Source: Erinaceus europaeus
Lineage: Eukaryota > Chordata > Mammalia > Eulipotyphla > Erinaceidae
NCBI RefSeq assembly: GCF_950295315.1
Contig: NW_026647338.1
Coordinates: forward strand, 1-64,000
Direction: 5' to 3'
Length of the DNA: 64,000 nucleotides
Numbering within the stretch: position 1 is the first letter of the stretch; the number at the start of each line of letters is the position of its first letter. The translations under genes were made by a program, and so were the position numbers. Positions 1 through 64,000 of this stretch are shown one piece after another. Under the pieces are notes generated by a model that was not told the origin of the DNA, made no database searches, and was given only the letters and a program-made list of their open reading frames with translations.

Positions 1-278
1 AGTAGGCAGCCAAACGTGACTGGACAGGCTCAAGCCCCTGAATTCTGAGGGGTGCCCCAGCTTCCCCCATTGGCAGTGTTTGGATCATAGTGAGGCATGG
101 CGTTGATTCGGAACTCAGGAGAGTGAGACATGAGAGTCCCTTTGCATATGCATTCTTGCTTAGCCACAATCTGGGCTAGCTGGCTTGCCCTGACCAGATA
201 GGTTCTCTGTACATAAGTTGCAGGAGAGGCTGGCTCCCTTGCCACCCATGCTCTGAGACTACTTCAGGTGATCTCTGA
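1..278. repeat. Unit left flank with degenerate SINE-like piece
   Basis: No gene is seen here. About 100-165 contains, in order, a SINE-like string CATGAGAGTCCCTTTGCATA followed by a CATTCTTGCT-like tail. From memory this resembles the 5' part of hedgehog SINEs read in antisense. TTTGCATATGCA within it also resembles an octamer palindrome. The same stretch follows every unit start. Confidence in the SINE origin is low to moderate because the segment is short and degenerate. Confidence 0.4.
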
Positions 279-331
279 GCACACACAGACACACACAAAC
301 AGACACACACACACACACACACACACACACA
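279..331. repeat. (CA)n microsatellite
   Basis: CA repeat with CAGA and CAAA interruptions at its left end. The uninterrupted part varies from about 10 repeats in unit 9 to 14 in unit 1 and about 28 in unit 7. It is the most length-variable site of the unit and makes copies distinguishable. Confidence 0.95.
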
Positions 332-356
332 TTACTGTCAGGTTGGTAGTAGAGCC

Positions 357-3338
357 TATGGTGAAGGCTGGGGCTGTCTGGGGTCTGTGGGCATGAGAGC
401 TGCTGCCTTACAATCTCTACAAGCCAGGTTTGAACCTGTCATCAATGAACACAGTGTAGGAGGTTTTTGAATTCTGGTCTCTTTCCAACTCATCTATTTC
501 TCTTCTCGCCTTCTCTATCTCTAACTCTCACATGCTCTCACACACTCTGTCTTCACTCATTAATATTTTACTTAGATTCTTATTTTACTGACAGGCCCAG
601 ATAGACAAAGAGAGTTACCAGAGCACTGCTGAGCTCTGGCTTGTTGTGTCGGCGATTTCACCTAGGCTACTGGAGCCTCAGTTTGTAAGTCTTTCTGACA
701 CAAGCCATATTCTGTCTCCTCATTTCCATGCCAGTATCACTCAGAGTTTATAATAAAGATATACATACATGTATATATATACATATAGATTTATATATCT
801 GTCATTTTTAGAATGTTCGACCTATGTATTTGACCTTCTTTCAGAATTACCACATTTATAACAGCCTAGTTTTTCTGAAATAATTGGCCATATAGTTGGA
901 GCAGGATTCAATACAATTATAAATAATAGAACCTTCCAGTAGCATTTCTAATCGTGTTTCTATTAGCATCCTTATTGTAATTATCATGGCCCAGATCTTC
1001 CCTCCTTTTTCTAGTGTAAGCTTCAATACGTATGTGTTTGTTTTCTTTCTCCGGAAATCTTAATGTCCCTGGACCCTGAAGTGTTAGGGAATTTTTGAAG
1101 CAGCCCTCTGTTTCTCAGCAGATGGTTTCTATGTTTCTGCTGTCATCAGGTCTTCTTGTGGTTTTTGTCTTTATTTATTTTTATTGTTTCAAGTCCTCCT
1201 AGATCATCCCCATTTATTTGCATATTTATTTATTTAGTCAGGTATCACATGTGGCATCATTTCTTCTGCTTGAGAGATTTTCTCTTATAACTGAAGGGAA
1301 CTTTTGATGCACAATACATTTCCTGGGGCAAATACTACACACATATGGTGAAGGCTTGGGTTGTCTGGGGTCTGTGGGCATTAGAGCTGCTGCGTGACAA
1401 TCTCTACAACCCAGGTTTGAACCTGTCATGAATGAACACAGCCTAGGGGGTTTTTGACTTCTGGTCTATTTCCAACTCTTCTATTTCTCTTCTCGCCATC
1501 TCTGTCTCTGACTCTCACAGGCTCTCTCTCACTCTGTCTGAACTCAGGAATATTTTACTTATATCCTTATTTTATTGACAGGCCCAGATATACAAAGAGA
1601 GTGGCCAGAGCACTGCTGAGCTCTGGCTGGTTTTGTTTGTGATTTCACCTAGGCTACTGGAGCCTCTGATTGGTAAGTCTCTCTGACTTAAGCCATATTC
1701 TGTCTCCTCATATCCATGGCAGTATCTCTCAGACTTTATAATAAAGATATACATCCATATACATATATAAATATACATATATATCTCTGTCATTTTTAGA
1801 ATTGTCAACCTATGTAATTGATCTTAATCAGAATTCACACATTTACAACAGGTTCCTTTTTCCCTACTAATTGGCCACATAGTTGGAGCAGGATTCAATA
1901 CAATTATAAATAATAGAACCTTCCAGTAGCATTTCTAATAGCATTTCTATCAGCATCCTTATTTTAATTATCATAGTACAGAACTTGCCTCCTTTCTCTA
2001 GTGTAAGCTTCAATACATATGAGTTTCTTTTCATTCTCCCGAAATCTTAATTTCCCTGGACTCTGAAGGGTCTCGGAGCTTTTGAAGCAGCCCTTGATTC
2101 TCAGCAGATGGTTTCTATGTTTCTGCTGTCATCAGGTCTTCTTGTGCTTTTTGTTTTTATTTTTCATTTGTTTCAAATCCTCCTAGATAACCCCCATTTA
2201 TTTGCATATTTATTTATTTATTTATTTATTTGGTTCTATATTACATGAGGGGTCCATTCTTCTGCTTGATAGATTTTTCTCTTATAATTGAAGGGAAGTT
2301 TACACTCACAATACATATCCTGTCGTAAATACTACACACATATGGTGAAGGCTGGGGTTGTCTCGGGTCTGTGGACAGGAGACTGATGCCTTACAATCTC
2401 GACAACCCAGGTTTGAACCTGTTATGTATGAACACAGAGTGGGAGCTTTTGGACTTCTGGTCTCTTTCCAACTCTTCTATTTCTCTTCTTGCCTTCTCTG
2501 TCTCTGACTCTCACAGGCTCTCACTCACTCTGTCTGCACTCATTAATATTTTACTTTTATAATATTTGACTGACAGGCCCAGATATACAAAGCGAGTCAC
2601 CAGGGCCCGGCTGAGCTCTGGATTGTTTTGTTGGCGATTTCACCTAGGTTTCTGGAGCCTCAGCTTTGTAAGTCTCTCTGGCACAAGCCATACTCTGTCT
2701 CCTCATAGCCATGCCAGTATCCTTCATAGTTGATAATAAAGATACACATACATATATGTACATATACATACATACATATATATATATATATCAGACATTT
2801 TTAGAATTGATGACCTTTTTATTTGATCTGAATGCAGAATTACCGCATTTATAATAGCCTCCTTATTCAGAAATAATTGGTCACATAGTTGGAGCAGGAT
2901 TCACTACAATTATAAATTATAAACTTTCCAGGAGCATTTCCAATAGCCTTTCTATCAGTATCCTTATTGTAATTATCATAGCACAGAACTTGCCTCCATT
3001 TTCTAGTGTAAGCTTCAAATCGTATGCGTTTCTTTTCATTCTCGGAATTCGTAATTTGCCTGGACCCTGTGTGTCAGGGAATTTTTGAAGCAGCCCTCTA
3101 TTTCTCAGCAGACGTTTTCTATATTTCTGCTGTCATCAGGTCTTCCTGTGGTGTTTGTTTTTATTTTTTATTTTTTTCAAATCCTCTTAGATCATTCCCA
3201 TTTATTTGCATATTTATTTATTTATTTATTTCGTCCGATATCACATGAGGGGTCATTTCTTCTGCCTGATAGATTTTCTCTTATAATTGAAGGGAACTTT
3301 TGACACACAATACATTTCCTTTTGCAGATACTACACAC
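357..3338 (+). repeat. Unit 1 subrepeat array A-B-C (3 x ~1 kb)
   Basis: Three direct copies start at TATGGTGAAGGCT at 357 (A), 1344 (B) and 2341 (C); C ends near GATACTACACAC at 3338. Each copy has the same internal order. First comes a SINE-like sense segment with a B-box-like GGTTTGAACC (427, 1414, 2410), then a pyrimidine-rich stretch. Next is an antisense SINE-like segment with AGAGCACTGCTGAGCTCTGG (degraded in C), followed by AATAAAGATA (752, 1740, 2735) and a TA/CATA microsatellite. An AT-rich body follows, with an ATTTGCAT octamer (1216, 2200, 3204) and TTTA repeats. The copies are diverged from each other but each is conserved between units, so this triplication predates the spread of the 7.8 kb unit. 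Confidence 0.93.
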
Positions 3339-3572
3339 TACTACAACTGCTACTGCACTGTTTTTGACAGTGACATCCAATGCACAATGGATTAGTATTG
3401 CATGGCTCTAGAGAATGTTCACTATTTAACCTACAATGTTTTTAACCTCACAAATATTTATTCTGTTCTTTCTTGGGGGATGAATGGTTTACAGTCAACA
3501 GTTCCATATAATATTGGGCACCGGGGGGGTAATTTTTCCCACTACCCCTGTATTTCTGTACATCCTTTGTAA
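3339..3572. other. AT-rich spacer without recognisable feature
   Basis: Moderately AT-rich unique sequence between subrepeat C and the antisense SINE. A G-run of 6-7 bases (near 3524-3531) varies in length between units. No open frame, RNA or regulatory signal is supported. Confidence 0.6.
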
Positions 3573-3765
3573 CTTTCTTATTGAGGAGAAGCAAACAGTC
3601 ATAAATTGAGAGAGCAGGGCCCAAGCAGGAAGAGAGACAGAGAGACATCTGCAGCTCTGATTTGTCACTAGCCCAGCTTTTCCCTAGCTGGGTAAGTGTG
3701 ACCAGGGGCTCAAAACAGGGTCCTGGGATTCCACATAGTTCCCTGGCAGCTCCACCAGCTGTTCC
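3573..3765 (-). mobile_element. Antisense SINE, hedgehog-type (degenerate)
   Basis: On the + strand the order is a TTATTGAGG-like tail, AAATTGAGAGAG, GAAGAGAGACAGAGAGACA, CTGCAGCTCTG, TTCCC-AGCTGGG, GACCAGGGGCTC, GGGTCCTGGG. From memory this is the reverse complement of the tRNA-derived SINE abundant in Erinaceus, whose sense strand has a GAGCCCC(T/G)GGTC block then a TCTCTCTGTCTC-rich body. It is inserted antisense to the proposed promoter. The same copy occurs at about 11394-11586, 18233-18425, 26044-26236, 33846-34038, 41652-41844, 49470-49662 and 57270-57462, so the insertion predates array amplification. RepeatMasker with a eulipotyphlan library would settle the family. Confidence 0.6.
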
Positions 3766-3951
3766 TCCAACCCATGCTCCCTTCGTTGTCCATGTAACTA
3801 TCGATCTGCTCTAGGCATTTCTCACCTTCATATGCCAGAAACTTAACACTTCTCCCTTCCACCCATGAAACTTTGACCTTTCGCTAGGGTGCAAAACAGC
3901 AACTCCAATCCAAGTTATTTTCGGGACAAGTGTGTACGTCTCTGTGGGAAG
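3766..3951. other. Spacer without recognisable feature
   Basis: Mixed-composition sequence between the SINE and the (GT)n tract. Scattered single-base variants exist between units. Nothing functional is seen. Confidence 0.5.
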
Positions 3952-3973
3952 GTGTGTGTGTGTGTGTGTGTGT
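3952..3973. repeat. (GT)n microsatellite upstream of the CTCF-like pair
   Basis: Eleven GT repeats in unit 1 and 24 in unit 2 (11773-11820). Units 5 and 8 share a TTTGTG interruption, an informative lineage marker. Confidence 0.95.
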
Positions 3974-4229
3974 AAGTGTGCATAAGTGTGTTTCAGTTAA
4001 GATTACCGCTGTTGTTTCTTTATTCCTGACACAGGGACTTAGGAACTGGGTTGTGTTATGACAAAGGAAGTTTCCACTGCACAAGTGGTTTTTCAAGTAT
4101 GAATTGGCACATTGGATTGTGGACTCTGTTGTGCATTCTCCCAGGTGGTCCTCAGATGGGTTCTTTCCTTTGCTATTCCCATGCTGTGTGTAATTTTCTG
4201 GGTAGACTCAAAGAGGAGTGGCATGGGGA
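3974..4229. other. Spacer preceding the CTCF-like module
   Basis: Unique sequence, highly conserved between units, with no recognised coding or RNA feature. It leads directly into the first copy of the duplicated CTCF-like module. Confidence 0.5.
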
Positions 4230-4253
4230 GCTCAGCTGCATTCTGCTGTATGT

Positions 4254-4268
4254 CCACAAGGTGGCGGC
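4254..4268 (+). promoter_or_regulatory. CTCF-like site 1
   Basis: CCACAAGGTGGCGGC fits the CTCF core CCASYAGRKGGCRS at all positions except the fifth (A for Y). It is preceded 24 bp upstream by GCTCAGCTGCATTCTGCTG, which contains TGCATTC, a plausible partial match to the upstream CTCF submotif. The same 39 bp layout recurs 247 bp downstream. The motif is unchanged in all eight units and always on the + strand, pointing toward the CCAAT array. Motif match is seen; binding is inferred. Confidence 0.65.
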
Positions 4269-4391
4269 AAAGACCATAGTTGAGTGTAGTGATTCTGTGG
4301 AATGAGGAGAACTCTAGGAATTGTGGCCCGTGGACAGCAGGGTTGAAATTGACGTAGAGTGCCCTAGACATCTGTTCTTTCCTGTGGGGTG

Positions 4392-4403
4392 GGGGGATCC
4401 CCC
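4392..4403. promoter_or_regulatory. GGGGGATCCCCC palindrome (kappaB-like)
   Basis: Perfect 12-bp palindrome between the two CTCF-like sites. GGGGATCCCC fits the NF-kappaB consensus GGGRNNYYCC, of the form preferred by p50/p52 dimers. It is present in all eight complete units, although the G/T-rich stretch before it has lost one G in units 5 and 8. A chance palindrome is possible. Confidence 0.3.
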
Positions 4404-4500
4404 ATTTGGCTTTGCAAGTGGAAGGGGTTTCTCTCTTTGCCTGGGATGACTCTACTGGGAGCTTGTGAATCCCTGTGCTCAGCTGCATTCTGCTGGGTGT

Positions 4501-4515
4501 CCACAAGAGGGCAGC
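4501..4515 (+). promoter_or_regulatory. CTCF-like site 2
   Basis: CCACAAGAGGGCAGC is a strong CTCF core with a single mismatch at the fifth position. The flank GCTCAGCTGCATTCTGCTG begins at 4477, at the same distance (24 bp) as in site 1, so the two sites arose by local duplication. It lies 216 bp before the first GC box of the CCAAT array and is followed by CACCAGGGCGGG. It is conserved base for base in every complete unit. Confidence 0.72.
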
Positions 4516-4716
4516 ACCAGGGCGGGACTAAGGCTCCATGGGGCAAGTGCCCTGAGGCACTGGGCTAGGAGAGTGGCGACAGTGTTTCTGGGTGTGCCCC
4601 AAGAGCATGGCCAGCCTAGCGCAGGCAGGCAGTGTCCTAAGGACGGGCCCAGACAGGAGCTGTGGGGGTCGTGTTTGCAGAAACAGGGCCTTCAGAGGAT
4701 GGCAGAAAGTCCCCGG
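4516..4716. other. GC-rich lead-in to the CCAAT array
   Basis: Rising GC and CpG content with no CCAAT box and no recognisable gene. It sits between CTCF-like site 2 and the first GC box and may form part of the same CpG island. Confidence 0.45.
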
Positions 4717-5428
4717 GGGCGGGCCTCAGAGCCCGTGCCCAATGAGCCTGAGGGGAGGGCCCAGTGGGTATTCATAGAGACAGCTGGCCAATCAGAGAGG
4801 AGGAACGTCACCCTCAGGGGCGTGAAGCAAGAGCTGGCCAATGAGAACAGAGGAGGAGTTGCGTGGGCGGGCCTCAGAGAGCAGCCCACCAATGAGAGCC
4901 TGGGTGCTGGCTCTGGGTGGGCGTACCCCTGGAGGTCAGCCAATCAGGGTCCAGCGGAAGTGCCTGGGGGGCGGGCCCTCGGGAGGCTGTCCAATGAGCG
5001 CCTGGGGCGGGCCTCGTGGGCGGAGCCCAGGAGGCTGGCCAATCATGGGGCAAGGGCGGTGACCTTCCTGGGCGTGCCTTAGGAAGTGGCCTATCAGAGG
5101 GCGTCCCTCAGACAGCAGCCCGCCAATGGGAGCCAAGAGAAGGCTGGCTGGGGGCGTCTCCCTGGGACACCAGGCCAATCAGAGTCGAGCAGAAGTGGCT
5201 GGTGGGCGGGCCTTCCGGAGGCTGCCCAATCAGCGTGCTGCAGGGCCGTGTGGGCGGTGCTCAAGGCCGCTGGCCAATCACTGACTAGGGGCGCGGACCC
5301 TCCTGGGCGTGTCCAAGCACACTGGCCAATGAGATTGCTGGTGGGGTTCTGGGCGTGGCCTAGGCCTCTGGCCTATCAGAGCCTGGCTGGCGCCCTGTGG
5401 GCGGGCCTTCTGAAGGAATCCCGCCAAT
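4717..5428 (+). promoter_or_regulatory. Unit 1 CCAAT/GC-box minisatellite (NF-Y-type array)
   Basis: Thirteen intact CCAAT boxes, all on the + strand, start at 4739, 4788, 4838, 4889, 4940, 4991, 5039, 5123, 5175, 5226, 5274, 5326 and 5424. Two decayed ones read CCTAT at 5090 and 5372. Spacing is 46-52 bp except one 33 bp step, so this is a ~51 bp minisatellite. Every intact box continues as CCAAT(C/G)(A/G), the extended NF-Y consensus. Between boxes lie six GGGCGGGCC GC boxes (first at 4717, last near 5399), which fit SP/KLF factors, and several GGGCGTG elements. The region is CpG-rich and ends 16 bp before CCTTAAAAGG. NF-Y is a trimeric histone-fold activator; binding here is inferred from motifs. 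A long open frame crosses it only because stop codons are rare in GC-rich DNA. Confidence 0.8.
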
Positions 5429-5444
5429 GGGAGCTCAGAGCTGG

Positions 5445-5454
5445 CCTTAAAAGG
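5445..5454 (+). promoter_or_regulatory. CCTTAAAAGG: TATA-like box and perfect CArG box
   Basis: TTAAAA (5447-5452) stands at the end of the CCAAT/GC array, 16 bp after the last CCAAT box, where a core promoter TATA element would be expected. The full ten bases match the CArG consensus CC(A/T)6GG bound by serum response factor. If it acts as a TATA box, transcription would start near 5475-5485 on the + strand. It is identical in all eight units: 5445, 13292, 20123, 27930, 35733, 43534, 51352 and 59157. Promoter activity is an inference. Confidence 0.55.
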
Positions 5455-5566
5455 CTGGGCGTGCTTCCAGGAAATGCGAAGCAGGGTTCAGCCCAGGGCC
5501 CTGCCTTGCAGAAGCTGTCCAGTGCGCATGTGTATAACTCCGTTTGTTCCTGTGCCTCTGTGGATT
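5455..5566 (+). other. Predicted start region of a non-coding transcript
   Basis: This sequence follows the TATA-like element. No initiator is certain. Unit 8 carries three or more private changes here (near 59188-59210), while the other units are nearly invariant. A weak donor-like CAG/GTGATT lies at 5637 and a strong acceptor-like TTTCTTCTTTTCAG ends at 5734. Confidence 0.3.
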
Positions 5567-5613
5567 TGTGTGTGTGTGTGTGTGTGTGTCTGAGGGAGGG
5601 AGAGAGAGAGAGA
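5567..5613. repeat. (TG)n-(GA)n compound microsatellite
   Basis: A TG run followed by a short GA run just downstream of the predicted start site. The TG length differs between units and is longest in unit 6 (about 43657-43696). If the region is transcribed, the tract would lie in the first exon. Confidence 0.95.
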
Positions 5614-5734
5614 ACAACAGAATCACTGTGGCACAGGTGATTTTGTGCAAAACACTTGGCACATTCTGATTTACAGCTCAATATTGACACCAGGGCAGCT
5701 CTCCTTGGCCCTTGGTCACTTTTCTTCTTTTCAG

Positions 5735-6035
5735 ATGTAAAGACACTGAAGAGGGAGAGGTTTTTGCCCTGAGGCTTGCACTGGGAACTAGCAGCTGCCC
5801 TGTTTGTGTTGCCAGACTAGGAAACCTGTGGTGCCTGTCCATGTGGAGAGTCTCCTGGATGAGTTCCTTCTCGAGACTTTTTCGCTCGGTCCCGTTGGAG
5901 CTGCATATAGTTAATGATTTGGAGATTTTATTCCTTTGGACAATTCTTTTCCTGATGCAAAGTTTCTCTCCAGGTTTTAGCAATCAATTGTGTGAATGTC
6001 ACATCGAATCCATTGTAGAAAATGACTACATCAGT
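5735..6035 (+). other. Conserved unique stretch after an acceptor-like site
   Basis: It begins immediately after TTTCTTCTTTTCAG, a pyrimidine tract plus CAG that is conserved in all eight units. No protein family is recognisable in any frame. Could be exonic sequence of a non-coding transcript; this is inference only. Confidence 0.25.
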
Positions 6036-6036
6036 G

Positions 6037-6101
<65 letters not shown>

Positions 6102-6108
6102 GTATGTA
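6036..6108. repeat. (TC)n-(TA)n compound microsatellite
   Basis: A TC tract with a TTTC interruption passes into a TA tract. Units 3 to 7 carry an added TATC interruption in the TC part. The TA part shrinks from about 12 repeats in unit 1 to about 5 in units 4, 6 and 7. Confidence 0.95.
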
Positions 6109-6135
6109 ACATGTAGAGGTCTGAAAATATTTTTT

Positions 6136-6270
6136 AGCTAGAGACCTGCACAGCTCTGGATTAGGGTAGCAATGTGGATACACCTGGCCCTTCTGAGCCA
6201 CAGTCATGAGAGACATCTCACAGAGCCATATCGTATATCACTCTACAAATCTCTCTCAGCACAAACTACC
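6136..6270 (-). mobile_element. Antisense SINE-like remnant
   Basis: GAGACCTGCACAGCTCTGGA, GAGCCACAGTCATGAGAGAC and CCATATCGTATATCACTCTAC occur in the order of the 5' half of a hedgehog SINE in antisense (CAGCTCTGG, GAGCCTCAGGCATGAGAGTC, then a CATTATGCTATCT-like end, from memory). It is degenerate and shared by all units. A 129-codon open frame starts inside it. Confidence 0.45.
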
Positions 6271-6589
6271 ACTGCCAAATCATCTACTTCCCTCTTGCTC
6301 TTTTTGTCCACCGAGTCTTATCCCAAAACTGTAAATCAAAGAAGAAATAGACATAGTGCAGTTCCCTGCACACAGGACAGGCTGAGGCTGGACCAGGGAG
6401 ATGCAATACGCCAGCCTGCATCTTGGCTGGAGCATCACTATGACTACTTCGAATTTGGAGAGGCGAGGGCAGTTTTGCAGAGTGGGCTGCCGGCCAAGGG
6501 TTGCTTCTCAGAGTGGCTAAGACCTAGATGTTCTAAGTGTTACCTTTCCTCACAAACCTAAAATAGCAATGCCACTTGTAAGAAGTATG

Positions 6590-6715
6590 CATGGGCATGG
6601 AGGGTTTGTCTTCAGTGCTCTGGCACTGATCAACACAGGGCCAGAATTTCAGTCCTTGTCTGTCTCTGTCATTCTGTCTCTCTGACTGTCTCTACGTGCC
6701 TTCTTCACTGGGCCC
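6590..6715 (+). mobile_element. Sense SINE-like remnant
   Basis: GTGCTCTGGCACTGATCAAC is followed by CAGGGCCAGAATTTCAGTCC and a TCTGTCTCTGTC-rich stretch, resembling a sense-orientation SINE body. Identity is uncertain because the element is short and old. Confidence 0.35.
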
Positions 6716-7412
6716 TTACTGGAAGTCAGTGCATGCATCGTGAACTCAGCCTTCCTGGTGTTGAAATTTTCCTTTCTTTGCCCTTTGGATTATTTAGTCT
6801 CCTGCACATGGTGTAGTACAGAGGGGAACTGCGGAGACAGCGTTGCTGCTGCAGGTTCCAGGCATATGTCCATCTCCAGCTGAAGCTGTCCAGGCCCTCT
6901 GTGCTTGACTGCCATTCTCCAGGGCCCTGAGGCTGACACTCAGCCTCAATGCAGCCCTCCTCACCTTCCTGCACAGCATCCTTGTCCTTATTCCATGAGA
7001 GCCCCGGTCAAGGGAAGTGAAACTCGATCCCCCTGGCACACACACTGTGCTTTCCCTCTATTAAGCCAAATGGAAAGGATCTGTGGTACTGATGGCCACA
7101 CCAGTGTCCAGATTTTTCCATGCAAAACGGAAGCTTCCAGTGTTCAGAAAGAGGGTGTTTTGATGGCTGTGAAATGTCTTTTCCAAGTGCCTCATGGTGT
7201 TTCAAATCCCTTTGAAACCTGAAGTTCTTTCTTGTATCTAGGGGATATTTTCACCACTGGCCAGAAGGGCCGCCCAACTAGGAGCACAGCTATCCAGGGG
7301 TCAGGAGGTCTTCCAGCCTGCTAGCTCCTGGAGGGATTCCTGAGTATGTCCTCAGGGCCCAAGTGTAAAAGGTGTTTCCAATTGCCTTGATTAGCAGCAG
7401 CCAGGCCCTCAG
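6716..7412. other. Conserved unique tail without recognised gene
   Basis: About 700 bp of unique sequence in the second half of the unit. Unit-specific substitutions are scattered without codon periodicity. An acceptor-like TTCTTTCTTGTATCTAG ends at 7241. No homology to a known protein or RNA family is apparent to me. Confidence 0.4.
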
Positions 7413-7493
7413 GTGAGGGGCGGGGCTGTGATCTTGACTGGAAGCCCCTAATTTGGCCAATGGAGGCATCCATCTTTTTTTGTCTGTCCATAG
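7413..7493 (+). other. 81-nt intron-like segment with GC box and CCAAT
   Basis: A near-consensus donor CAG/GTGAGG starts the segment. A pyrimidine tract (CTTTTTTTGTCTGTCC) and ATAG acceptor end it, and CCTAAT about 43 nt before the acceptor fits a branch point. The same 81-nt length is kept in all eight units: 15264-15344, 22082-22162, 29899-29979, 37692-37772, 45507-45587, 53323-53403 and 61120-61200. Inside lie a GC box GGGGCGGGGC (7417-7426, mutated in unit 8) and a CCAAT (7457-7461). These could alternatively mark a second small promoter. Splicing is not shown. Confidence 0.35.
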
Positions 7494-7797
7494 CAAGGGC
7501 CCGGGGAGTTTGTGCTTCCTGCAAGCAGAGCGACATTGTATGGGACACTCATGCAAGTCTACTTCTGGGAATCTCTCTGAGTGTGATATGTGGACACCAG
7601 GACACCATGATCAGGGATGTGAGGCCACAGGAGCAATTGCCTTAGCCGGACCCAAAGGGTAGGTGTAAGGGGCCGGGTTCATCCACTATTGTTTGGTTCA
7701 ACACACTTCCCATCTAAGTGGAAACACAGCCCTTTCTGGGTACTTTCTGGGCTTGTAATCTGCTGCCCTGAGCAGTGGACTGAGAGCCTGGAGGCTG
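7494..7797. other. Unit end without recognised gene
   Basis: Unique sequence running into the next unit. A donor-like AGG/GTAGGTG sits at 7659. Two nearby haplotypes (ACACCATGATC versus AAGCATGAGC near 7608) separate outer from inner units. Nothing else is seen. Confidence 0.45.
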
Positions 7798-8159
7798 AGT
7801 AGGCAGCCAAACGTGACTGGACAGGCTCAAGCCCCTGAATTCTGAGGGGTGCCCCAGCTTCCCCCATTGGCAGTGTTTGGATCATAGTGAGGCATGGCAT
7901 TGATTCGGAACTCAGGAGAGTGAGACATGAGAGTCCCTTTGCATATGCATTCTTGCTTAGCCACAATCTGGGCTAGCTGGCTTGCCCTGACCAGATAGGT
8001 TCTCTGTACATAAGTTGCAGGAGAGGCTTGCTCCTTTGCCACCCATGCTCTGAGACTACTACAGGTGATCTCTGAGCACACACAGACACACACAAACAGA
8101 CAGACAGATAGACACACACACACACACACACACATTACTGTCAGGTTGGTAGTAGAGCC

Positions 8160-10570: not shown

Positions 10571-10614
<44 letters not shown>

Positions 10615-11161
10615 CATTTTTAGAATTGTTGACCTTTTTATTTGATCTGAATGCAGAATTACCGCATTTATAAAAGCCTCCTTATTCATAAATAATTGGT
10701 CACATAGTTGGAGCAGGATTCACTACAATTATAAATTATAAACTTTCCAGGAGCATTTCCAATAGCCTTTCTATCAGTATCCTTATTGTAATTATCATAG
10801 CACAGAACTTGCCTCCATTTTCTAGTGTAAGCTTCAAATCGTATGCGTTTCTTTTCATTCTCGGAATTCGTAATTTGCCTGGACCCTGTGTGTCAGGGAA
10901 TTTTTGAAGCAGCCCTCTATTTCTCAGCAGACGTTTTCTATATTTCTGCTGTCATCAGGTCTTCCTGTGGTGTTTGTTTTTATTTTTTATTTTTTTCAAA
11001 TCCTCTTAGATTATTCCCATTTATTTGCATATTTATTTATTTATTTATTTATTTCGTCCGATATCACATGAGGGGTCATTTCTTCTGCCTGATAGATTTT
11101 CTCTTATAATTGAAGGGAACTTTTGACACACAATACATTTCCTTTTGCAGATACTACACAC
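8160..11161 (+). repeat. Unit 2 subrepeat array A-B-C
   Basis: Copies start at 8160 (A), 9147 (B) and 10148 (C). The (TTTA)n tract of B and the (AT)n tract of C are longer than in unit 1. Confidence 0.93.
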
Positions 11162-11770
11162 TACTACAACTGCTACTGCACTGTTTTTGACAGTGACATC
11201 CAATGCACAATGGATTAGTATTGCATGGCTCTAGAGAATGTTCGCTATTTAACCTACAATGTTTTTAACCTCACAAATATTTATTCTGTTCTTTCTTGGG
11301 GGATGAATGGTTTACAGTCAACAGTTCCATGTAATAGTGGGCACGGGGGGTAATTTTTCCCACTACCCCTGTATTTCTGTACATCCTTTGTAACTTTCTT
11401 ATTGAGGAGAAGCAAACAGTCATAAATTGAGAGAGCAGGGCCCAAGCAGGAAGAGAGACAGAGAGACATCTGCAGCTCTGATTTGTCACTAGCCCAGCTT
11501 TTCCCTAGCTGGGTAAGTGTGACCAGGGGCTCAAAACAGGGTCCTGGGATTCCACATACTTCCCTGGCAGCTCCACCAGCTGTCCCTCCAACCCATGCTC
11601 CCTTCGTTGTCCATGTAACTATGGATCTGCTCTAGGCATTTCTCACCTTCATATGCCAGAAACTTAACACTTCTCCCTTCCACCCATGAAACTTTGACCT
11701 TTTGCTAGGGTGCGAAACAGCAACTCCAATCCAAGTTATTTTCGGGAGAAGTGTGTACGTATCTGTGGGA

Positions 11771-11822
<52 letters not shown>

Positions 11823-12100
11823 GTGTGCATAAGTGTGTTTCAGTTAAGATTACCGCTGTTGTTTCTTTATTCCTGACACAGGGACTTAGGAACTGGGTTG
11901 TGTTATGACAAAGGAAGTTTCCACTGCACAAGTGGTTTTTCAAGTATGAATTGGCACATTGGATTGTGGATTCTGTTGTGCATTCTCCCAGGTGGTCCTC
12001 AGATGGGTTCTTTCCTTTGCTATTCCCATGCTGTGTGTAATTTTCTGGGTAGACTCAAAGAGGAGTGGCATGGGGAGCTCAGCTGCATTCTGCTGTATGT

Positions 12101-13411: not shown

Positions 13412-13445
<34 letters not shown>

Positions 13446-13891: not shown

Positions 13892-13952
<61 letters not shown>

Positions 13953-51471: not shown

Positions 51472-51513
<42 letters not shown>

Positions 51514-54015: not shown

Positions 54016-54054
<39 letters not shown>

Positions 54055-54078
54055 TACTGTCAGGTTGGTAGTAGAGCC

Positions 54079-57036
54079 TATGGTGAAGGCTGGGGCTGTC
54101 TGGGGTCTGTGGGCATGAGAGCTGCTGCCTTACAATCTCTACAAGCCAGGTTTGAACCTGTCATCAATGAACACAGTGTAGGAGGTTTTTGAATTCTGGT
54201 CTCTTTCCAACTCATCTATTTCTCTTCTCGCCTTCTCTATCTCTAACTCTCACACACTCTGTCTTCACTCATTAATATTTTACTTAGATTCTTATTTTAC
54301 TGACAGGCCCAGATAGACAAAGAGAGTTACCAGAGCACTGCTGAGCTCTGGCTTGTTGTGTTGGCGATTTCACCTAGGCTACTGGAGCCTCAGTTTGTAA
54401 GTCTTTCTGACACAAGCCATATTCTGTCTCCTCATTTCCATGCCAGTATCACTCAGACTTTATAATAAAGATATACATACATGTATATATGTACATATAG
54501 ATTTATATATCTGTCATTTTTAGAATGTTCGACCTATGTATTTGACCTTCTTTCAGAATTACCACATTTATAACAGCCTAGTTTTTCTGAAATAATTGGC
54601 CATATAGTTGGAGCAGGATTCAATACAATTATAAATAATAGAACCTTCCAGTAGCATTTCTAATCGTGTTTCTATTAGCATCCTTATTGTAATTATCATG
54701 GCCCAGATCTTCCCTCCTTTTTCTAGTGTAAGCTTCAATACGTATGTGTTTGTTTTCTTTCTCCGGAAATCTTAATGTCCCTGGACACTGAAGTGTTAGG
54801 GAATTTTTGAAGCAGCCCTCTGTTTCTCAGCAGATGGTTTCTATGTTTCTGCTGTCATCAGGTCTTCTTGTGGTTTTTGTCTTTATTTATTTTTATTGTT
54901 TCAAGTCCTCCTAGATCATCCCCATTTATTTGCATATTTATTTATTTAGTCAGGTATCACATGTGGCATCATTTCTTCTGCTTGAGAGATTTTCTCTTAT
55001 AACTGAAGGGAACTTTTGATGCACAATACATTTCCTGGGGCAAATACTACACACATATGGTGAAGGCTTGGGTTGTCTGGGGTCTGTGGGCATTAGAGCT
55101 GCTGCGTGACAATCTCTACAACCCAGGTTTGAACCTGTCATGAATGAACACAGCCTAGGGGGTTTTTGACTTCTGGTCTATTTCCAACTCTTCTATTTCT
55201 CTTCTCGCCATCTCTGTCTCTGACTCTCACAGGCTCTCTCTCACTCTGTCTGAACTCAGGAATATTTTACTTATATCCTTATTTTATTGACAGGCCCAGA
55301 TATACAAAGAGAGTGGCCAGAGCACTGCTGAGCTCTGGCTGGTTTTGTTTGTGATTTCACCTAGGCTACTGGAGCCTCTGATTGGTAAGTCTCTCTGACT
55401 TAAGCCATATTCTGTCTCCTCATATCCATGGCAGTATCTCTCAGACTTTATAATAAAGATATACATCCATATACATATATATCTCTGTCATTTTTAGAAT
55501 TGTCAACCTATGTAATTGATCTTAATCAGAATTCACACATTTACAACAGGTTCCTTTTTCCCTACTAATTGGCCACATAGTTGGAGCAGGATTCAATACA
55601 ATTATAAATAATAGAACCTTCCAGTAGCATTTCTAATAGCATTTCTATCAGCATCCTTATTTTAATTATCATAGTACAGAACTTGCCTCCTTTCTCTAGT
55701 GTAAGCTTCAATACATATGAGTTTCTTTTCATTCTCCCGAAATCTTAATTTCCCTGGACTCTGAAGGGTCTCGGAACTTTTGAAGCAGCCCTTGATTCTC
55801 AGCAGATGGTTTCTATGTTTCTGCTGTCATCAGGTCTTCTTGTGCTTTTTGTTTTTATTTTTCATTTGTTTCAAATCCTCCTAGATAACCCCCATTTACT
55901 TGCATATTTATTTATTTATTTATTTATTTATTTGGTTCTATATTACATGAGGGGTCCATTCTTCTGCTTGATAGATTTTTCTCTTATAATTGAAGGGAAG
56001 TTTACACTCACAATACATATCCTGTCGTAAATACTACACACATATGGTGAAGGCTGGGGTTGTCTGGGGTCTGTGGACAGGAGACTGATGCCTTACAATC
56101 TCGACAACCCAGGTTTGAACCTGTCATGTATGAACACAGAGTGGGAGCTTTTGGACTTCTGGTCTCTTTCCAACTCTTCTATTTCTCTTCTTGCCTTCTC
56201 TGTCTCTGACTCTCACAGGCTCTCACTCACTCTGTCTGCACTCATTAATATTTTACTTTTATATTATTTGACTGACAGGCCCAGATATACAAAGCGAGTC
56301 ACCAGGCCCCGGCTGAGCTCTGGATTGTGTTGTTGGCGATTTCACCTAGGTTTCTGGAACCTCAGCTTTGTAAGTCTCTCTGGCACAAGCCATACTCTGT
56401 CTCCTCATAGCCATGCCAGTATCCCTCATAGTTGATAATAAAGATACACATACATATATGTACATATACATATATATATATATATATATCAGACATTTTT
56501 AGAATTGTTGACCTTTTTATTTGATCTGAATGCAGAATCACCGCATTTATAATAGCCTCCTTATTCATAAATAATTGGTCACATAGTTGGAGCAGGATTC
56601 ACTACAATTATAAATTATAAACTTTCCAGGAGCATTTCCAATAGCCTTTCTATCAGTATCCTTATTGTAATTATCATAGCACAGAACTTGCCTCCATTTT
56701 CTAGTGTAAGCTTCAAATCGTATGCGTTTCTTTTCATTCTGAGAATTCGTAATTTGCCTGGACCCTGTGTGTCAGGGAATTTTTGAAGCAGCCCTCTATT
56801 TCTCAGCAGACGTTTTCTATATTTCTGCTGTCATCAGGTCTTCCTGTGGTGTTTGTTTTTATTTTTTATTTTTTTCAAATCCTCTTAGATCATTCCCATT
56901 TATTTGCATATTTACTTATTTATTTATTTCGTCCGATATCACATGAGGGGTCATTTCTTCTGCCTGAGAGATTTTCTCTTATAATTGAAGGGAACTTTTG
57001 ACACACAATACATTTCCTTTTGCAGATACTACACAC
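54079..57036 (+). repeat. Unit 8 subrepeat array A-B-C
   Basis: Copies start at 54079, 55056 and 56043. The TTTCTGGAACC change near 56350 is shared with unit 5. Confidence 0.92.
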
Positions 57037-57966
57037 TACTACAACTGCTACTGCACTGTTTTTGACAGTGACATCCAATGCACAATGGATTAGTATTGCA
57101 TGGCTCTAGAGAATGTTCACTATTTAACCTACAATGTTTTTAACCTCACAAATATTTATTCTGTTCTTTCTTGGGGGATGAATGGTTTACAGTCAACAGT
57201 TCCATATAATAGTGGGCACGGGGGGGTAATTTTTCCCACTACCCCTGTATTTCTGTACATCCTTTGTAACTTTCTTATTGAGGAGAAGCAAACAGTCATA
57301 AATTGAGAGAGCAGGGCCCAAGCAGGAAGAGAGACAGAGAGACATCTGCAGCTCTGATTTGTCACTAGCCCAGCTTTTCCCTAGCTGGGTAAGTGTGACC
57401 AGGGGCTCAAAACAGGGTCCTGGGATTCCACATAGTTCCCTGGCAGCTCCACCAGCTGTTCCTCCAACCCATGCTCCCTTCGTTGTCCATGTAACTGTCG
57501 ATCTGCTCTAGACATTTCTCACCTTCATATGCCAGAAACTTAACACTTCTCCCTTCCACCCATGAAACTTTGACCTTTTGCTAGGGTGCAAAACAGCAAC
57601 TCCAATCCAAGTTATTTTCGGGACAAGTGTGTACGTCTCTGTGGGAAGGTGTGTGTGTGTGTGTGTGTGTGTGTTTGTGTGTGTGTAAGTGTGCATAAGT
57701 GTGTTTCAGTTAAGATTACCGCTGTTGTTTCTTTATTCCTGACACAGGGACTTAGGAACTGGGTTGTGTTATGACAAAGGAAGTTTCCACTGCACAAGTG
57801 GTTTTTCAAGTATGAATTGGCACATTGGATTGTGGACTCTGTTGTGCATTCTCCCAGGTGGTCTTCAGATGGGTTCTTTCCTTTGCTATTCCCATGCTGT
57901 GTGTAATTTTCTGGGTAGACTCAAAGAGGAGTGGCATGGGGAGCTCAGCTGCATTCTGCTGTATGT

Positions 57967-58227
57967 CCACAAGGTGGCGGCAAAGACCATAGTTGAGTGT
58001 AGTGATTCTGTGGAATGAGGAGAACTCTAGGAATTGTGGCCCGTGGACAGCAGGGTTGAAATTGACGTAGAGTGCCCTAGACATCTGTTCTTTCCTGTGG
58101 GTGGGGGGATCCCCCATTTGGCTTTGCAAGTGGAAGGGGTTTCTCTCTTTGCCTGGGATGACTCTACTGGGAGCTTGTGAATCCCTGTGCTCAGCTGCAT
58201 TCTGCTGGGTGTCCACAAGAGGGCAGC
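57967..58227 (+). promoter_or_regulatory. Unit 8 CTCF-like pair
   Basis: Motifs at 57967-57981 and 58213-58227, with the 246 bp spacing shared with unit 5. Confidence 0.68.
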
Positions 58228-58428
58228 ACCAGGGCGGGACTAAGGCTCCATGGGGCAAGTGCCCTGAGGCACTGGGCTAGGAGAGTGGCCACAGTGTTTC
58301 TGGGTGTGCCCCAAGAGCATGGCCAGCCTAGCGCAGGCAGGCAGTGTCCTAAGGACGGGCCCAGACAGGAGCTGTGGGGGTCGTGTTTGCAGAAACAGGG
58401 CCTTCAGAGGATGGCAGAAAGTCCCCGG

Positions 58429-59166
58429 GGGCGGGCCTCAGAGCCCGTGCCCAATGAGCCTGAGGGGAGGGCCCAGTGGATATTCATAGAGACAGCTGGC
58501 CAATCAGAGAGGAGGAACGTCACCCTCAGGGGCGTGAAGCAAGACCTGGCCAATGAGAACAGAGGAGGAGTTGCGTGGGCGGGCCTCAGAGAGCAGCCCA
58601 CCAATGAGAGCCTGGGTGCTGGCTCTGGGTGGGCGTACCCCTGGAGGTCAGCCAATCAGGGTCCAGCGGAAGTGCCTGGGGGGCGGGCCCTCGGGAGGCT
58701 GTCCAATGAGCGCCTGGGGCGGGCCTCGTGGGCGGAGCCCAGGAGGCTGGCCAATCATGGGGCAAGGGCGGTGACCTTCCTGGGCGTGCCTTAGGAACTG
58801 GCCTATCAGAGGGCGCCCCTCAGACAGCAGCCCGCCAATGGGAGCCAAGAGAAGGCTGGCTGGGGGCGTGTCCCTGGGACACCAGGCCAATCAGAGTCGA
58901 GCGGAAGTGGCTGGTGGGCGGGCCTTCCGGAGGCTGCCCAATCAGCGTGCTGCAGGGCCGTGTGGGCGGTGCTCAAGGCCGCTGGCCAATCACTGACTAG
59001 GGGCCCGGACCCTCCTGGGCGTGTCCAAGCACACTGGCCAATGAGATTGCTGGTGGGGTTCTGGGCGTGGCCTAGGCCTCTGGCCTATCAGAGCCTGGCT
59101 GGGGCCCTGTGGGCGGGTCTTCTGAAGGAATCCCGCCAATGGGAGCTCAGAGCTGGCCTTAAAAGG
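58429..59166 (+). promoter_or_regulatory. Unit 8 CCAAT/GC array and CArG/TATA-like box
   Basis: All 13 CCAAT boxes are intact. The last GC box has decayed to GGGCGGGTC near 59111. The CArG/TATA-like element is at 59157-59166. Confidence 0.78.
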
Positions 59167-59276
59167 CTGGGCGTGCTTCCAGGAAATGCGATGCAGTGTT
59201 CAGCCCAAGCCCCTGCCTTGCAGAAGCTGTCCAGTGTGCATGTGTATAACTCCGTTTGTGCCTGTGCCTCTGTGGA

Positions 59277-59310
<34 letters not shown>

Positions 59311-59756
59311 TGAGGGAGGTAGAGAGAGAGAGAACAACAGAATCACTGTGGCACAGGTGATTTTGTGCAAAACACTTGGCACATTCTGATTTACAGCTCA
59401 ATATTGACACCAGGGCAGCTCTCCTTGGCCCTTGGTCACTTTTCTTCTTTTCAGATGTAAAGACACTGAAGAGGGAGAGGTTTTTGCCCTGAGACTTGCA
59501 CTGGGAACTAGCAGCTGCCCTGTTTGTGTTGCCAGACTAGGAAACCTGTGGTGCCTGTCCATGTGGAGAGTCTCCTGGATGAGTTCCTTCTCGAGCCTTT
59601 TTCGCTCGGTCCCGTTGGAGCTGCATATAGCTAATGATTTGGAGATTTTATTCCTTTGGACAATTCTTTTCCTGATGCAAAGTTTCTCTCCAGGTTTTAG
59701 CAACCAATTGTGTGAATGTCACATCGAATCCATTGTAGAAAATGACTACATCAGTG

Positions 59757-59813
<57 letters not shown>

Positions 59814-61504
59814 GTAACATGTAGAGGTCTGAAAATATTTTTTAGCTAGAGACCTGCACAGCTCTGGTTTAGGGTAGCAATGTGGATACACCTGGCCCTT
59901 CTGAGCCACAGTCATGAGAGACATCTCACAGAGCCATATCGTATATCACTCTACAAATCTCTCTCAGCACAAACTACCACTGCCAAATCATCTACTTCCC
60001 TCTTGCTCTTTTTGTCCACCGAGTCTTATCCCAAAACTGTAAATCAAAGAAGAAATAGACATAGTGCAGTTCCCTGCACACAGGACAGGCTGAGGCTGGA
60101 CCAGGGAGATGCAATACGCCAGCCTGCATCTTTGCTGGAGCATCACTATGACTACTTCGAATTTGGAGAGGCGAGGGCAGTTTGGGAGAGTGGGCTGCCG
60201 GCCAAGGGTTGCTTCTCAGAGTGGCTAAGACCTAGATGTTATAAGTGTTACCTTTCCTCACAAACATAAAATAGCAATGCCACTTGTAAGAAGTATGCAT
60301 GGGCATGGAAGGTTTGTCTTCAGTGCTCTGGCACTGGTCAACACAGGGCCAGAATTTCAGTCCTTGTCTGTCTCTGTCATTCTGTCTCTCTGACTGTCTC
60401 TACGTGCCTTCTTCACTGGGCCCTTACTGGAAGTCAGTGCATGCATCGTGAACTCAGCCTTCCTGGTGTTGAAATTTTCCTTTCTTTGCCCTTTGGATTA
60501 TTTAGTCTCCTGCACATGGTGTAGTACAGAGGGGAACTGCGGAGACAGCGTTGCTGCTGCAGGTTCCAGGCATATGTCCATCTCCAGCTGAAGCTGTCCA
60601 GGCCCTCTGTGCTTGACTGCCATTCTCCAGGGCCCTGAGACTGACACTCAGCCTCAATGCAACCCTCCTCACCTTCCTGCACAGCATCCTTGTCCTTATT
60701 CCATGAGAGCCCCGGTCAAGGGAAGTGAAACTCGATCCCCCTGGCACACACACTGTGCTTTCCCTCTATTCAGCCAAATGGAAAGGATCTGTGGTACTGA
60801 TGGCCACACCAGTGTCCAGATTTCCCATGCAAAACGGAAGCTTCCAGTGTTCAGAAAGAGGGTGTTTTGATGGCTGTGAAATGTCTTTTCCAAGTGCCTC
60901 ATGGTGTTTCAAATCCCTTTGAAACCTGAAGTTCTTTCTTGTATCTAGGGAATATTTTCACCACTGGCCAGAAGGGCCGCCCAACTAGGAGCACAGCTAT
61001 CCAGGGGTCAGGAGGTCTTCCAGCCTGCTAGCTCCTGGAGGGATTCCTGAGTATGTCCTCAGGGCCCAAGTGTAAAAGGTGTTTCCAATTGCCTTGATTA
61101 TCAGCAGCCAGGCCCTCAGGTGAGGGGCAGGACTGTGATCTTGACTGGAAGCCCCTAATTTGGCCAATGGAGGCATCCATCTTTCTTTGTCTGTCCATAG
61201 CAAGGGCCCGGGGAGTTTGTGCTTCCTGCAAGCAGAGCGACATTGTATGGGACACTCATGCAAGCCTACTTCTGGGAATCTCTCTGAGGGTGATGTGTGG
61301 ACACCAGGACACCATGATCAGGGATGTGAAGCCACAGGAGGAATTGCCTTAGCCGGACCCAAAGGGTAGGTGTAAGGGGCCGGGTTCATCCACTATTGTT
61401 TGGTTCAACACACTTCCCATCTAAGTGGAAACACAGCCTTTTCTGGGTACTTTCTGGGCTTGTAATCTGCTGCCCTGAGCAGTGGACTGAGAGCCTGGAG
61501 GCTG

Positions 61505-64000
61505 AGTAGGCAGCCAAACGTGACTGGACAGGCTCAAGCCCCTGAATTCTGAGGGGTGCCCCAGCTTCCCCCATTGGCAGTGTTTGGATCATAGTGAGGC
61601 ATGGCATTGATTCGGAACTCAGGAGAGTGAGACATGAGAGTCCCTTTGCATATGCATTCTTGCTTAGCCACAATCTGGGCTAGCTGGCTTGCCCTGACCA
61701 GATAGGTTCTCTGTACATAAGTTGCAGGAGAGGCTGGCTCCCTTGCCACCCATGCTCTGAGACTACTACAGGTGATCTCTGAGCACACACAGACACACAC
61801 AAACAGACAGACACACACACACACACACACATTACTGTCAGGTTGGTAGTAGAGCCTATGGTGAAGGCTGGGGCTGTCTGGGGTCTGTGGGCATGAGAGC
61901 TGCTGCCTTACAATCTCTACAAGCCAGGTTTGAACCTGTCATCAATGAACACAGTGTAGGAGGTTTTTGAATTCTGGTCTCTTTCCAACTCATCTATTTC
62001 TCTTCTCGCCTTCTCTATCTCTAACTCTCACATGCTCTCACACACTCTGTCTTCACTCATTAATATTTTACTTAGATTCTTATTTTACTGACAGGCCCAG
62101 ATAGACAAAGAGAGTTACCAGAGCACTGCTGAGCTCTGGCTTGTTGTGTTGGCGATTTCACCTAGGCTACTGGAGCCTCAGTTTGTAAGTCTTTCTGACA
62201 CAAGCCATATTCTGTCTCCTCATTTCCATGCCAGTATCACTCAGAGTTTATAATAAAGATATACATACATGTATATATGTACATATAGATTTATATATCT
62301 GTCATTTTTAGAATGTTCGACCTATGTATTTGACCTTCTTTCAGAATTACCACATTTATAACAGCCTAGTTTTTCTGAAATAATTGGCCATATAGTTGGA
62401 GCAGGATTCAATACAATTATAAATAATAGAACCTTCCAGTAGCATTTCTAATCGTGTTTCTATTAGCATCCTTATTGTAATTATCATGGCCCAGATCTTC
62501 CCTCCTTTTTCTAGTGTAAGCTTCAATACGTATGTGTTTGTTTTCTTTCTCCGGAAATCTTAATGTCCCTGGACCCTGAAGTGTTAGGGAATTTTTGAAG
62601 CAGCCCTCTGTTTCTCAGCAGATGGTTTCTATGTTTCTGCTGTCATCAGGTCTTCTTGTGGTTTTTGTCTTTATTTATTTTTATTGTTTCAAGTATTCCT
62701 AGATCATTCCCATTTATTTGCATATTTATTTATTTAGTCAGGTATCACATGTGGCATCATTTCTTCTCCTTGAGAGATTTTGTCTTATAAATGAAGGGAA
62801 CTTTTGATGCACAATACATTTCCTGGGGCAAATACTACACACATATGGTGAAGGCTTGGGTTGTCTGGGGTCTGTGGGCATTAGAGCTGCTGCGTGACAA
62901 TCTCTACAACCCAGGTTTGAACCTGTCATGAATGAACACAGCCTAGGGGGTTTTTGACTTCTGTTCTATTTCCAACTCTTCTATTTCTCTTCTTGCCATC
63001 TCTGTCTCTGACTCTCACAGGCTCTCTCTCACTCTGTCTGAACTCAGGAATATTTTACTTATATCCTTATTTTATTGACAGGCCCAGATATACAAAGAGA
63101 GTGGCCAGAGCACTGCTGAGCTCTGGCTGGTTTTGTTTGTGATTTCACCTAGGCTACTGGAGCCTCTGATTGGTAAGTCTCTCTGACTTAAGCCATATTC
63201 TGTCTCCTCATATCCATGGCAGTATCTCTCAGACTTTATAATAAAGATATACATCCATATACATATATAAATATACATATATATCTCTGTCATTTTTAGA
63301 ATTGTCAACCTATGTAATTGATCTTAATCAGAATTCACACATTTACAACAGGTTCCTTTTTCCCTACTAATTGGCCACATAGTTGGAGCAGGATTCAATA
63401 CAATTATAAATAATAGAACCTTCCAGTAGCATTTCTAATAGCATTTCTATCAGCATCCTTATTTTAATTATCATAGTACAGAACTTGCCTCCTTTCTCTA
63501 GTGTAAGCTTCAATACATATGAGTTTCTTTTCATTCTCCCGAAATCTTAATTTCCCTGGACTCTGAAGGGTCTCGGAACTTTTGAAGCAGCCCTTGATTC
63601 TCAGCAGATGGTTTCTATGTTTCTGCTGTCATCAGGTCTTCTTGTGCTTTTTGTTTTTATTTTTCATTTGTTTCAAATCCTCCTAGATAACCCCCATTTA
63701 CTTGCATATTTATTTATTTATTTATTTATTTGGTTCTATATTACATGAGGGGTCCATTCTTCTGCTTGATAGATTTTTCTCTTATAATTGAAGGGAAGTT
63801 TACACTCACAATACATATCCTGTCATAAATACTACACACATATGGTGAAGGCTGGGGTTGTCCTGGGTCTGTGGACAGGAGACTGCTGCCCTACAATCTC
63901 GACAACCCAGGTTTGAACCTGTCATGTATGAACACAGAGTGGGAGCTTTTGGACTTCTGGTCTCTTTCCAACTCTTCTATTTCTCTTCTTGCCTTCTCTG
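61505..64000 (+). repeat. Macrosatellite unit 9 (partial, 2496 bp, cut by window end)
   Basis: Only the left flank, the (CA)n tract (shortest here, about 10 repeats), subrepeats A and B and the first 160 bp of C are present. A cluster of private substitutions lies between about 62694 and 63000: AAGTATTCCTAG, CTTCTCCTTGAG, TTTGTCTTATAAATG and TTCTGTTCTATTTCC. The array continues past the window edge. Its CTCF and CCAAT core would lie outside. Confidence 0.93.
61857..64000 (+). repeat. Unit 9 subrepeats A, B and start of C
   Basis: Copies start at 61857, 62844 and 63841; the last is cut by the window end. B carries several private substitutions, as noted for the unit. Confidence 0.9.

Follow-up and report, generated by a model that had tools for sequence, protein, structure and literature searches.

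What kind of element occupies the start of contig NW_026647338.1 of the hedgehog Erinaceus europaeus? The stretch analysed (positions 1 to 64,000 of the forward strand, assembly GCF_950295315.1; hereafter the window) consists of repeat only and is a head-to-tail macrosatellite throughout, neither end of the array being seen within it. An original prediction had described a tandem macrosatellite with a 7.8-kb unit, and this was confirmed: seven units measure 7.79–7.85 kb and one 6.82 kb, and a ninth is cut by the window end. The predicted order of parts was also found in all eight complete units, two + strand CTCF-like motifs being followed by an array of CCAAT boxes with GC boxes and then by the word CCTTAAAAGG. 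We tentatively favour the view that each unit may be a CTCF-anchored NF-Y/GC-box promoter of a non-coding RNA, and that the array may serve as a one-sided stop for cohesin.

Unit boundaries were set at a fixed anchor, GAGTAGGCAGCC, with unit 1 measured from the window edge.

1–7796, + strand, repeat unit 1, 7796 bp, starts at the anchor
7797–15647, + strand, repeat unit 2, 7851 bp, set by the anchor
15648–22464, + strand, repeat unit 3, short, 6817 bp, with two subrepeats of ~987 bp, the first a mosaic
22465–30281, + strand, repeat unit 4, 7817 bp, set by the anchor
30282–38074, + strand, repeat unit 5, 7793 bp, set by the anchor
38075–45889, + strand, repeat unit 6, 7815 bp, set by the anchor
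45890–53705, + strand, repeat unit 7, 7816 bp, set by the anchor
53706–61503, + strand, repeat unit 8, 7798 bp, mostly with unit 1/2-type alleles in its final ~1.3 kb
61504–64000, + strand, repeat unit 9, incomplete at the window end

Paired CTCF-type sites

Two CTCF-type sites, A (TGTCCACAAGGTGGC) and B (TGTCCACAAGAGGGC), were found as sequence motifs in each of the eight units, both on the + strand and 246–247 bp apart, in agreement with the 16 motifs of one orientation that had been predicted.

4230–4269, + strand, CTCF site A, unit 1, 40-bp block (motif match; block as in unit 4)
4477–4516, + strand, CTCF site B, unit 1, 40-bp block (motif match; block as in unit 4)
12077–12116, + strand, CTCF site A, unit 2 (motif)
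12324–12363, + strand, CTCF site B, unit 2 (motif)
18908–18947, + strand, CTCF site A, unit 3 (motif)
19155–19194, + strand, CTCF site B, unit 3 (motif)
26715–26754, + strand, CTCF site A, unit 4 (motif and comparison of the A and B blocks)
26962–27001, + strand, CTCF site B, unit 4, no CpG in 40 bp (motif and comparison of the A and B blocks)
34519–34558, + strand, CTCF site A, unit 5 (motif)
34765–34804, + strand, CTCF site B, unit 5 (motif)
42319–42358, + strand, CTCF site A, unit 6 (motif)
42566–42605, + strand, CTCF site B, unit 6 (motif)
50137–50176, + strand, CTCF site A, unit 7 (motif)
50384–50423, + strand, CTCF site B, unit 7 (motif)
57943–57982, + strand, CTCF site A, unit 8 (motif)
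58189–58228, + strand, CTCF site B, unit 8 (motif)

Scored with the JASPAR CTCF matrix MA0139.1, sites A and B reach 20.8 and 20.15 out of a maximum possible 26.0. When a unit is dinucleotide-shuffled, its top match scores 11.3 on average (standard deviation 2.4), and one of 500 shuffles reached either site's value. The next-best match in the window, at 13.6, lies on the − strand inside the CCAAT array of units 4, 6 and 7 (27405–27423, 43009–43027 and 50827–50845); the remaining five units differ there by a single base and score 8.9.

Sites A and B share a 40-bp block, made up of the 19-bp core and 21 bp upstream, in which 35 of 40 positions are identical. Outside the block identity falls at once to 4/22 and 3/22, which is chance level, and when the 100-bp flanks were aligned with gaps their scores were equalled by 116 and 138 of 300 shuffles. 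Three of the differences fall within the CTCF core, and both scores still exceed 20. The block is consistent with an old duplication of which the CTCF footprint has been preserved. One CpG is present in site A and none in the 40-bp block of site B. No viral or prokaryote contig matched an exact pattern of the block, which is unsurprising for DNA of a mammal. YY1 was rejected as a partner for CTCF: a word with one mismatch to the YY1 motif overlaps site A in all eight units, but its core ATGG reads GTGG.

The CCAAT/GC-box array and the promoter-like word

Downstream of the CTCF pair, units 1 to 8 carry 13, 13, 12, 12, 12, 12, 12 and 13 CCAAT boxes, all on the + strand. The total of 99 bears out the prediction of 12–13 same-strand boxes per array and about 100 overall. 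One box is lost in units 4, 6 and 7, where it reads CCTAT, and a different one in units 3 and 5.

4739–5454, + strand, CCAAT/GC-box array of unit 1, 15 monomers of ~50 bp (13 with CCAAT, 2 with CCTATCAG), with CCTTAAAAGG at 5445–5454
12586–13301, + strand, CCAAT/GC-box array (13 CCAAT) and CCTTAAAAGG, unit 2
19417–20132, + strand, CCAAT/GC-box array (12 CCAAT) and CCTTAAAAGG, unit 3
27224–27939, + strand, CCAAT/GC-box array (12 CCAAT) and CCTTAAAAGG, unit 4
35027–35742, + strand, CCAAT/GC-box array (12 CCAAT) and CCTTAAAAGG, unit 5
42828–43543, + strand, CCAAT/GC-box array (12 CCAAT) and CCTTAAAAGG, unit 6
50646–51361, + strand, CCAAT/GC-box array (12 CCAAT) and CCTTAAAAGG, unit 7
58451–59166, + strand, CCAAT/GC-box array (13 CCAAT) and CCTTAAAAGG, unit 8

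A 790-bp stretch covering the array of unit 1 has 13 copies of CCAAT on the + strand and none on the − strand, against an average of 1.0 on both strands in shuffled sequence (maximum 5, n=1000). GGGCG occurs there 18 times on the + strand and once on the − strand, with shuffles averaging 2.7 on the + strand (maximum 7, n=300). The CTCF scores and the CCAAT count are thus both far above chance by comparison with shuffled sequence.

The 15 monomers of unit 1 follow one another in steps of 46–52 bp, with one of 33 bp. Among the 13 full-length monomer bodies (the 33-bp one excluded), as phased on CCAAT, mean gapped identity is 59.2% against 50.6% in shuffled sequence, and the CCAAT pentamer reaches 94.4%. 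Autocorrelation of the array has its maximum at 51–52 bp, and a weak peak persists at 52 bp (z 2.6) after masking of CCAAT. The array has the look of an ancient minisatellite whose monomers have drifted while CCAAT, and less strictly the GC box, has been kept. A second-order period of about 235–252 bp, or about five monomers, was also seen (27224–27939 and equivalents), near the 247-bp spacing of sites A and B.

The word CCTTAAAAGG stands at the end of the array on the + strand in all eight units. It is a weak variant of TATA and, just as much, a perfect match to the CArG motif of SRF; a second CArG-type match occurs in seven of the eight units. The predicted core promoter element thus exists as a word in every unit, but to call it a promoter element is a guess. 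From CCTTAAAAGG to the next + strand AATAAA the distance is 3.10–3.13 kb in units 1–7 (for example 5445 to 8555 and 13292 to 16404).

Regular CCAAT boxes in short tandem repeats adjoining a weak TATA are also the arrangement of the ERV9/LTR12 U3 enhancer, and LTR12 is described as carrying 5–17 tandem CCAAT repeats of ~41 nt that bind NF-Y and drive transcription (PMC11853044). The array might on this likeness be the U3 of an endogenous retroviral long terminal repeat (LTR) of that type captured in a tandem repeat, an origin that we consider very improbable. The period here is ~50 bp and not ~41. The LTR12 partner motifs for GATA-2 and MZF1 beside CCAAT, sought as GTGGGGA (exact) and TCTGTATCTAGCT (at most two mismatches), had no match in the 64 kb, GC boxes standing in their place, and the six frames of unit 4 contain no retroviral Pfam domain. 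The passages describing LTR12 also mention no CTCF pair (PMC11853044). Membership of LTR12 itself was rejected on the period and the absent partner motifs.

Exchange of sequence between units

Over aligned bases the units show 98.8–99.95% identity, and units 4, 6 and 7 are almost the same (99.92–99.95%). Their main difference in length lies in a subrepeat region, given here for unit 4.

22829–25800 (end approximate), + strand, three tandem AT-rich subrepeats of ~987 bp, 86–88% identical, each with a block resembling a short interspersed element (SINE) and one + strand AATAAA

Unit 3 has two such subrepeats where the other units have three, which explains its length of 6.82 kb. Its first subrepeat is 96.4% identical to subrepeat 1 and 90.5% identical to subrepeat 2 of unit 4, which are themselves 87.5% identical. 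Because this subrepeat resembles both, unit 3 looks like the product of an unequal exchange involving subrepeats 1 and 2. A mosaic structure is seen in unit 8, which at sites that split units 1 and 2 from units 3–7 carries the unit 1/2 base at none of six before unit-4 position 28900 and at six of eight after it. These two patterns indicate that the array exchanges sequence. Since the units are also nearly identical, the eight copies of each motif are not eight independent observations.

CpG content

The array had further been called CpG-rich, and this did not hold. The array of unit 1 is GC-rich (66%), but its observed/expected CpG ratio is 0.42, and that of the whole of unit 2 is 0.24. Over the whole 64 kb, none of 6380 windows of 200 bp and none of 6350 windows of 500 bp combines a GC fraction of at least 0.5 with a ratio of at least 0.6, the usual CpG-island criteria; a CpG-island promoter array was rejected for this reason.

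Coding and RNA content

Twenty-five open reading frames (ORFs) of at least 90 codons were listed for units 3 and 4. Ten of these were compared with Pfam and gave a single match, to DUF6085, with an E value of 0.065 that is below the cut-off of that family. The six frames of unit 4, translated with X at stops, contain no Pfam domain at E≤0.1. No Rfam family was found at its gathering score and no transfer RNA (tRNA) gene in the window; five Rfam matches in unit 4 (E 0.07–0.33) are far below gathering scores, and three of them lie in an AT microsatellite. An array of small nuclear RNA, tRNA or ribosomal RNA genes was rejected on these grounds.

An ampliconic family with one protein-coding gene per unit, as for D4Z4/DUX4 or USP17, is improbable in the extreme, although a 205-codon ORF is present in units 3 and 4. 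This ORF has one relative, P0001, with 98% identity over 81% of its length, out of 683 candidates drawn from a set of 5.8 billion predicted proteins. The ORF spans the CCAAT array, upstream of the putative transcription start, and no Pfam domain rises above its cut-off. P0001 has 166 amino acids and neither name nor domain, is encoded on a single 1100-base contig, and differs from each of the eight units at 1–3 of 165 residues, residue 122 always included; for these reasons it would most simply be a further copy of the repeat that was annotated as a gene. A second protein search gave no match. A coding macrosatellite was therefore rejected, the one Pfam match among the ten ORFs being below cut-off, the six frames of unit 4 giving none and the sole protein relative being an unnamed ORF.

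A proposed promoter module behind a CTCF pair

The sequence shows the array, its motifs with their spacing and orientation and the pattern of similarity within units, and no coding or RNA-family content was found in it; binding, transcription and boundary function are inferred. The order of parts, namely a CTCF pair, an NF-Y/GC-box array, a TATA-like/CArG word, ~3 kb without genes and subrepeats with AATAAA, would best suit a transcription unit with an upstream CTCF anchor. Each unit would then form an RNA polymerase II promoter module complete in itself and preceded by a co-oriented CTCF pair. NF-Y on the CCAAT array of ~50-bp period, joined by Sp/KLF factors at the GC boxes, would hold nucleosomes off ~0.7 kb, and a + strand transcript would start near CCTTAAAAGG and extend ~3.1 kb to the first + strand AATAAA, within the subrepeats of the next unit. 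The direction of a CTCF site determines the side from which cohesin is stopped. At least 16 sites facing the same way could jointly stop cohesin coming from the promoter side, so that the array would become a loop anchor or a strong one-sided boundary. The tandem CTCF array of DXZ4 is likewise described as forming a large one-sided boundary (PMC6985041). With few CpGs in the core and none in site B, occupancy would be expected to depend less on DNA methylation than at DXZ4.

Several observations weigh against such a module. The CpG depletion of the CCAAT array (0.42) suggests past germline methylation, which can mean silence, and CCTTAAAAGG is weak as a TATA variant. The + strand AATAAA words derive from one ancestral subrepeat and may be of chance origin. 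The block shared by sites A and B could be a small, recent-looking inserted duplication and not a conserved footprint. The contrast between CCAAT and monomer body is partly built in, the monomers having been phased on CCAAT, and only the unbroken spacing counters this; with both CCAAT and GC boxes masked, the ~51-bp autocorrelation is no longer prominent, its value at 52 bp (z 2.0) being matched by those at 98 and 127 bp. Lastly, the columns that vary between units number 0 of 90 in the CTCF block, 2 of 126 in the CCAAT 9-mers, 18 of 655 in the rest of the array and 159 of 7817 in the whole unit. Motif columns are thus not clearly less variable than the rest, and constraint between units was rejected as a demonstrated property of the motifs. 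The comparison within units fits constraint on the CTCF and CCAAT sites; that between units gives it no significant support.

The same data bear on a passive macrosatellite, in which unequal crossing-over multiplied an old promoter that had CTCF sites and the copies were homogenised; the array would by now be methylated and for the most part silent, its motifs being inherited baggage. The near-identity of the units, the apparent unequal-exchange product in unit 3, the mosaic unit 8, the absence of CpG islands from the window, the variability of the motif columns and the lost CCAAT boxes would all agree with it. The presence of CCAAT in 13 of the 15 monomers despite their drift, and the sharp limits of the 40-bp CTCF block, point instead to constraint, at least before amplification, and we regard the passive array as possible but on balance somewhat unlikely.

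The favoured promoter module has a more far-reaching form, which seems to us quite unlikely. The array would be a lineage-specific CTCF/NF-Y macrosatellite that reached a DXZ4-type super-boundary by another route, dense, methylation-tolerant NF-Y arrays keeping it open without CpG islands and CTCF occupancy being constitutive and not governed by methylation. The units would serve as alternative promoters for a single family of long non-coding transcripts, the choice along the array being set by cohesin stopping at co-oriented CTCF pairs. Promoter choice of this kind has been proposed for protocadherins.

Comparison with DXZ4 and other macrosatellites

Few CTCF macrosatellites have been described. 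The unit of DXZ4 is given as 3 kb in human, 3.8–5.7 kb in mouse, ~4.6 kb in cat and ~8 kb in horse (PMC8662614, PMC10656420), and the ~8-kb monomers of horse and donkey are reported to carry three CTCF sites (PMC10656420). A 34-bp DXZ4 signature, including 13 bp beyond the CTCF core, was derived from 25 mammals (PMC3491370). We scanned unit 2 with the consensus as printed in PMC8662614. The best match has 15 mismatches, against a shuffle mean of 14.7 (range 12–16, n=200), and a degenerate form of the signature gave 6 mismatches against a mean of 7.2 (range 4–9); the felid study tolerated at most 13 mismatches (PMC8662614). Membership of DXZ4 by signature was rejected, the match in unit 2 being no better than in shuffles.

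The comparison with DXZ4 made in the original prediction is thus sound in part. Like DXZ4, the array has tandem multi-kb units with CTCF sites and a putative promoter in each and is non-coding; unlike DXZ4, it lacks the conserved 34-bp signature in the unit scanned and has a CCAAT array. It also differs from primate and cat DXZ4 in having no CpG-island character, which mouse DXZ4 lacks too, the latter being described as not GC-rich (PMC3491370).

A further reading is that this is the lineage's own DXZ4 (or ICCE), lying on the X between PLS3 and AGTR2, and that its CTCF signature has diverged. The layout would agree, with multi-kb units, same-facing CTCF sites in each and a putative internal promoter, as would the size of the horse and donkey monomers. 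Hedgehog and shrew are not named in the passages that define the signature (PMC3491370), and the lineage may be unsampled. With the signature in unit 2 at shuffle level, beyond the felid limit, and no CpG island in the window, we judge this identity unlikely. The array is not filed here as DXZ4, though it may work in a DXZ4-like manner.

Other arrays resemble it in single respects. FIRRE/ICCE is alike by description in its tandem CTCF sites, and paired CTCF-YY1 sites are described for X-linked repeats of this type (PMC6985041); unlike in such pairs, site A here overlaps only the YY1-like word with the altered core. D4Z4 is also a tandem array, of 3.3-kb units, and is reported as a CTCF-dependent insulator (PMC2639723), but unit 4 has no DUX4-type homeodomain in its six frames. 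The 7.3-kb tRNA macrosatellite of human 1q23.3, which binds CTCF (PMC4041453), is near in unit size, whereas the window has no tRNA gene. Neither a hedgehog CTCF macrosatellite nor an NF-Y/CTCF macrosatellite was found in the open-access PMC literature among the matches listed. The array appears to be a variant of the CTCF macrosatellite kind.

Deletion of DXZ4 and FIRRE is reported to have limited effect on X inactivation (PMC6985041), which leaves the purpose of such arrays open. An array of CTCF pairs without DXZ4 signature or CpG islands would be a naturally occurring case in which to ask whether the density of CTCF sites, the activity of the promoters or the control of methylation is what such an array requires. 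If placed on its chromosome and assayed, it could also show whether such macrosatellites arise in little-studied lineages.

Minor features of the array

Between-unit differences comprise 63 transitions and 74 transversions, a ratio of 0.85, in 137 clean biallelic columns of 161 variable ones, those dropped being near gaps, of low complexity or not biallelic. A looser filter gave 68 and 81 of 149. The usual ratio in mammals is about 2. Possible contributors to the low value are sequence error, the scarcity of CpG and an unusual mutation process. Length-variable runs of (GT)n, (TG)n, (TC)n and (CA)n occur in most units (for example 11773–11820, 13414–13444 and 46170–46255), and several unit-to-unit offset shifts coincide with microsatellite runs.

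Two SINE consensus stretches of hedgehog (Erinaceidae) type match unit 4 with E values of 3e-17 and 6e-17, and the second of them matches each of the three subrepeats. In the reversed unit no match is better than 2e-7, and that one comes from purine repeats. By this main clue to the host the window would probably be hedgehog DNA. Degenerate SINE copies lie at 26038–26240 and in the subrepeats from 22829.

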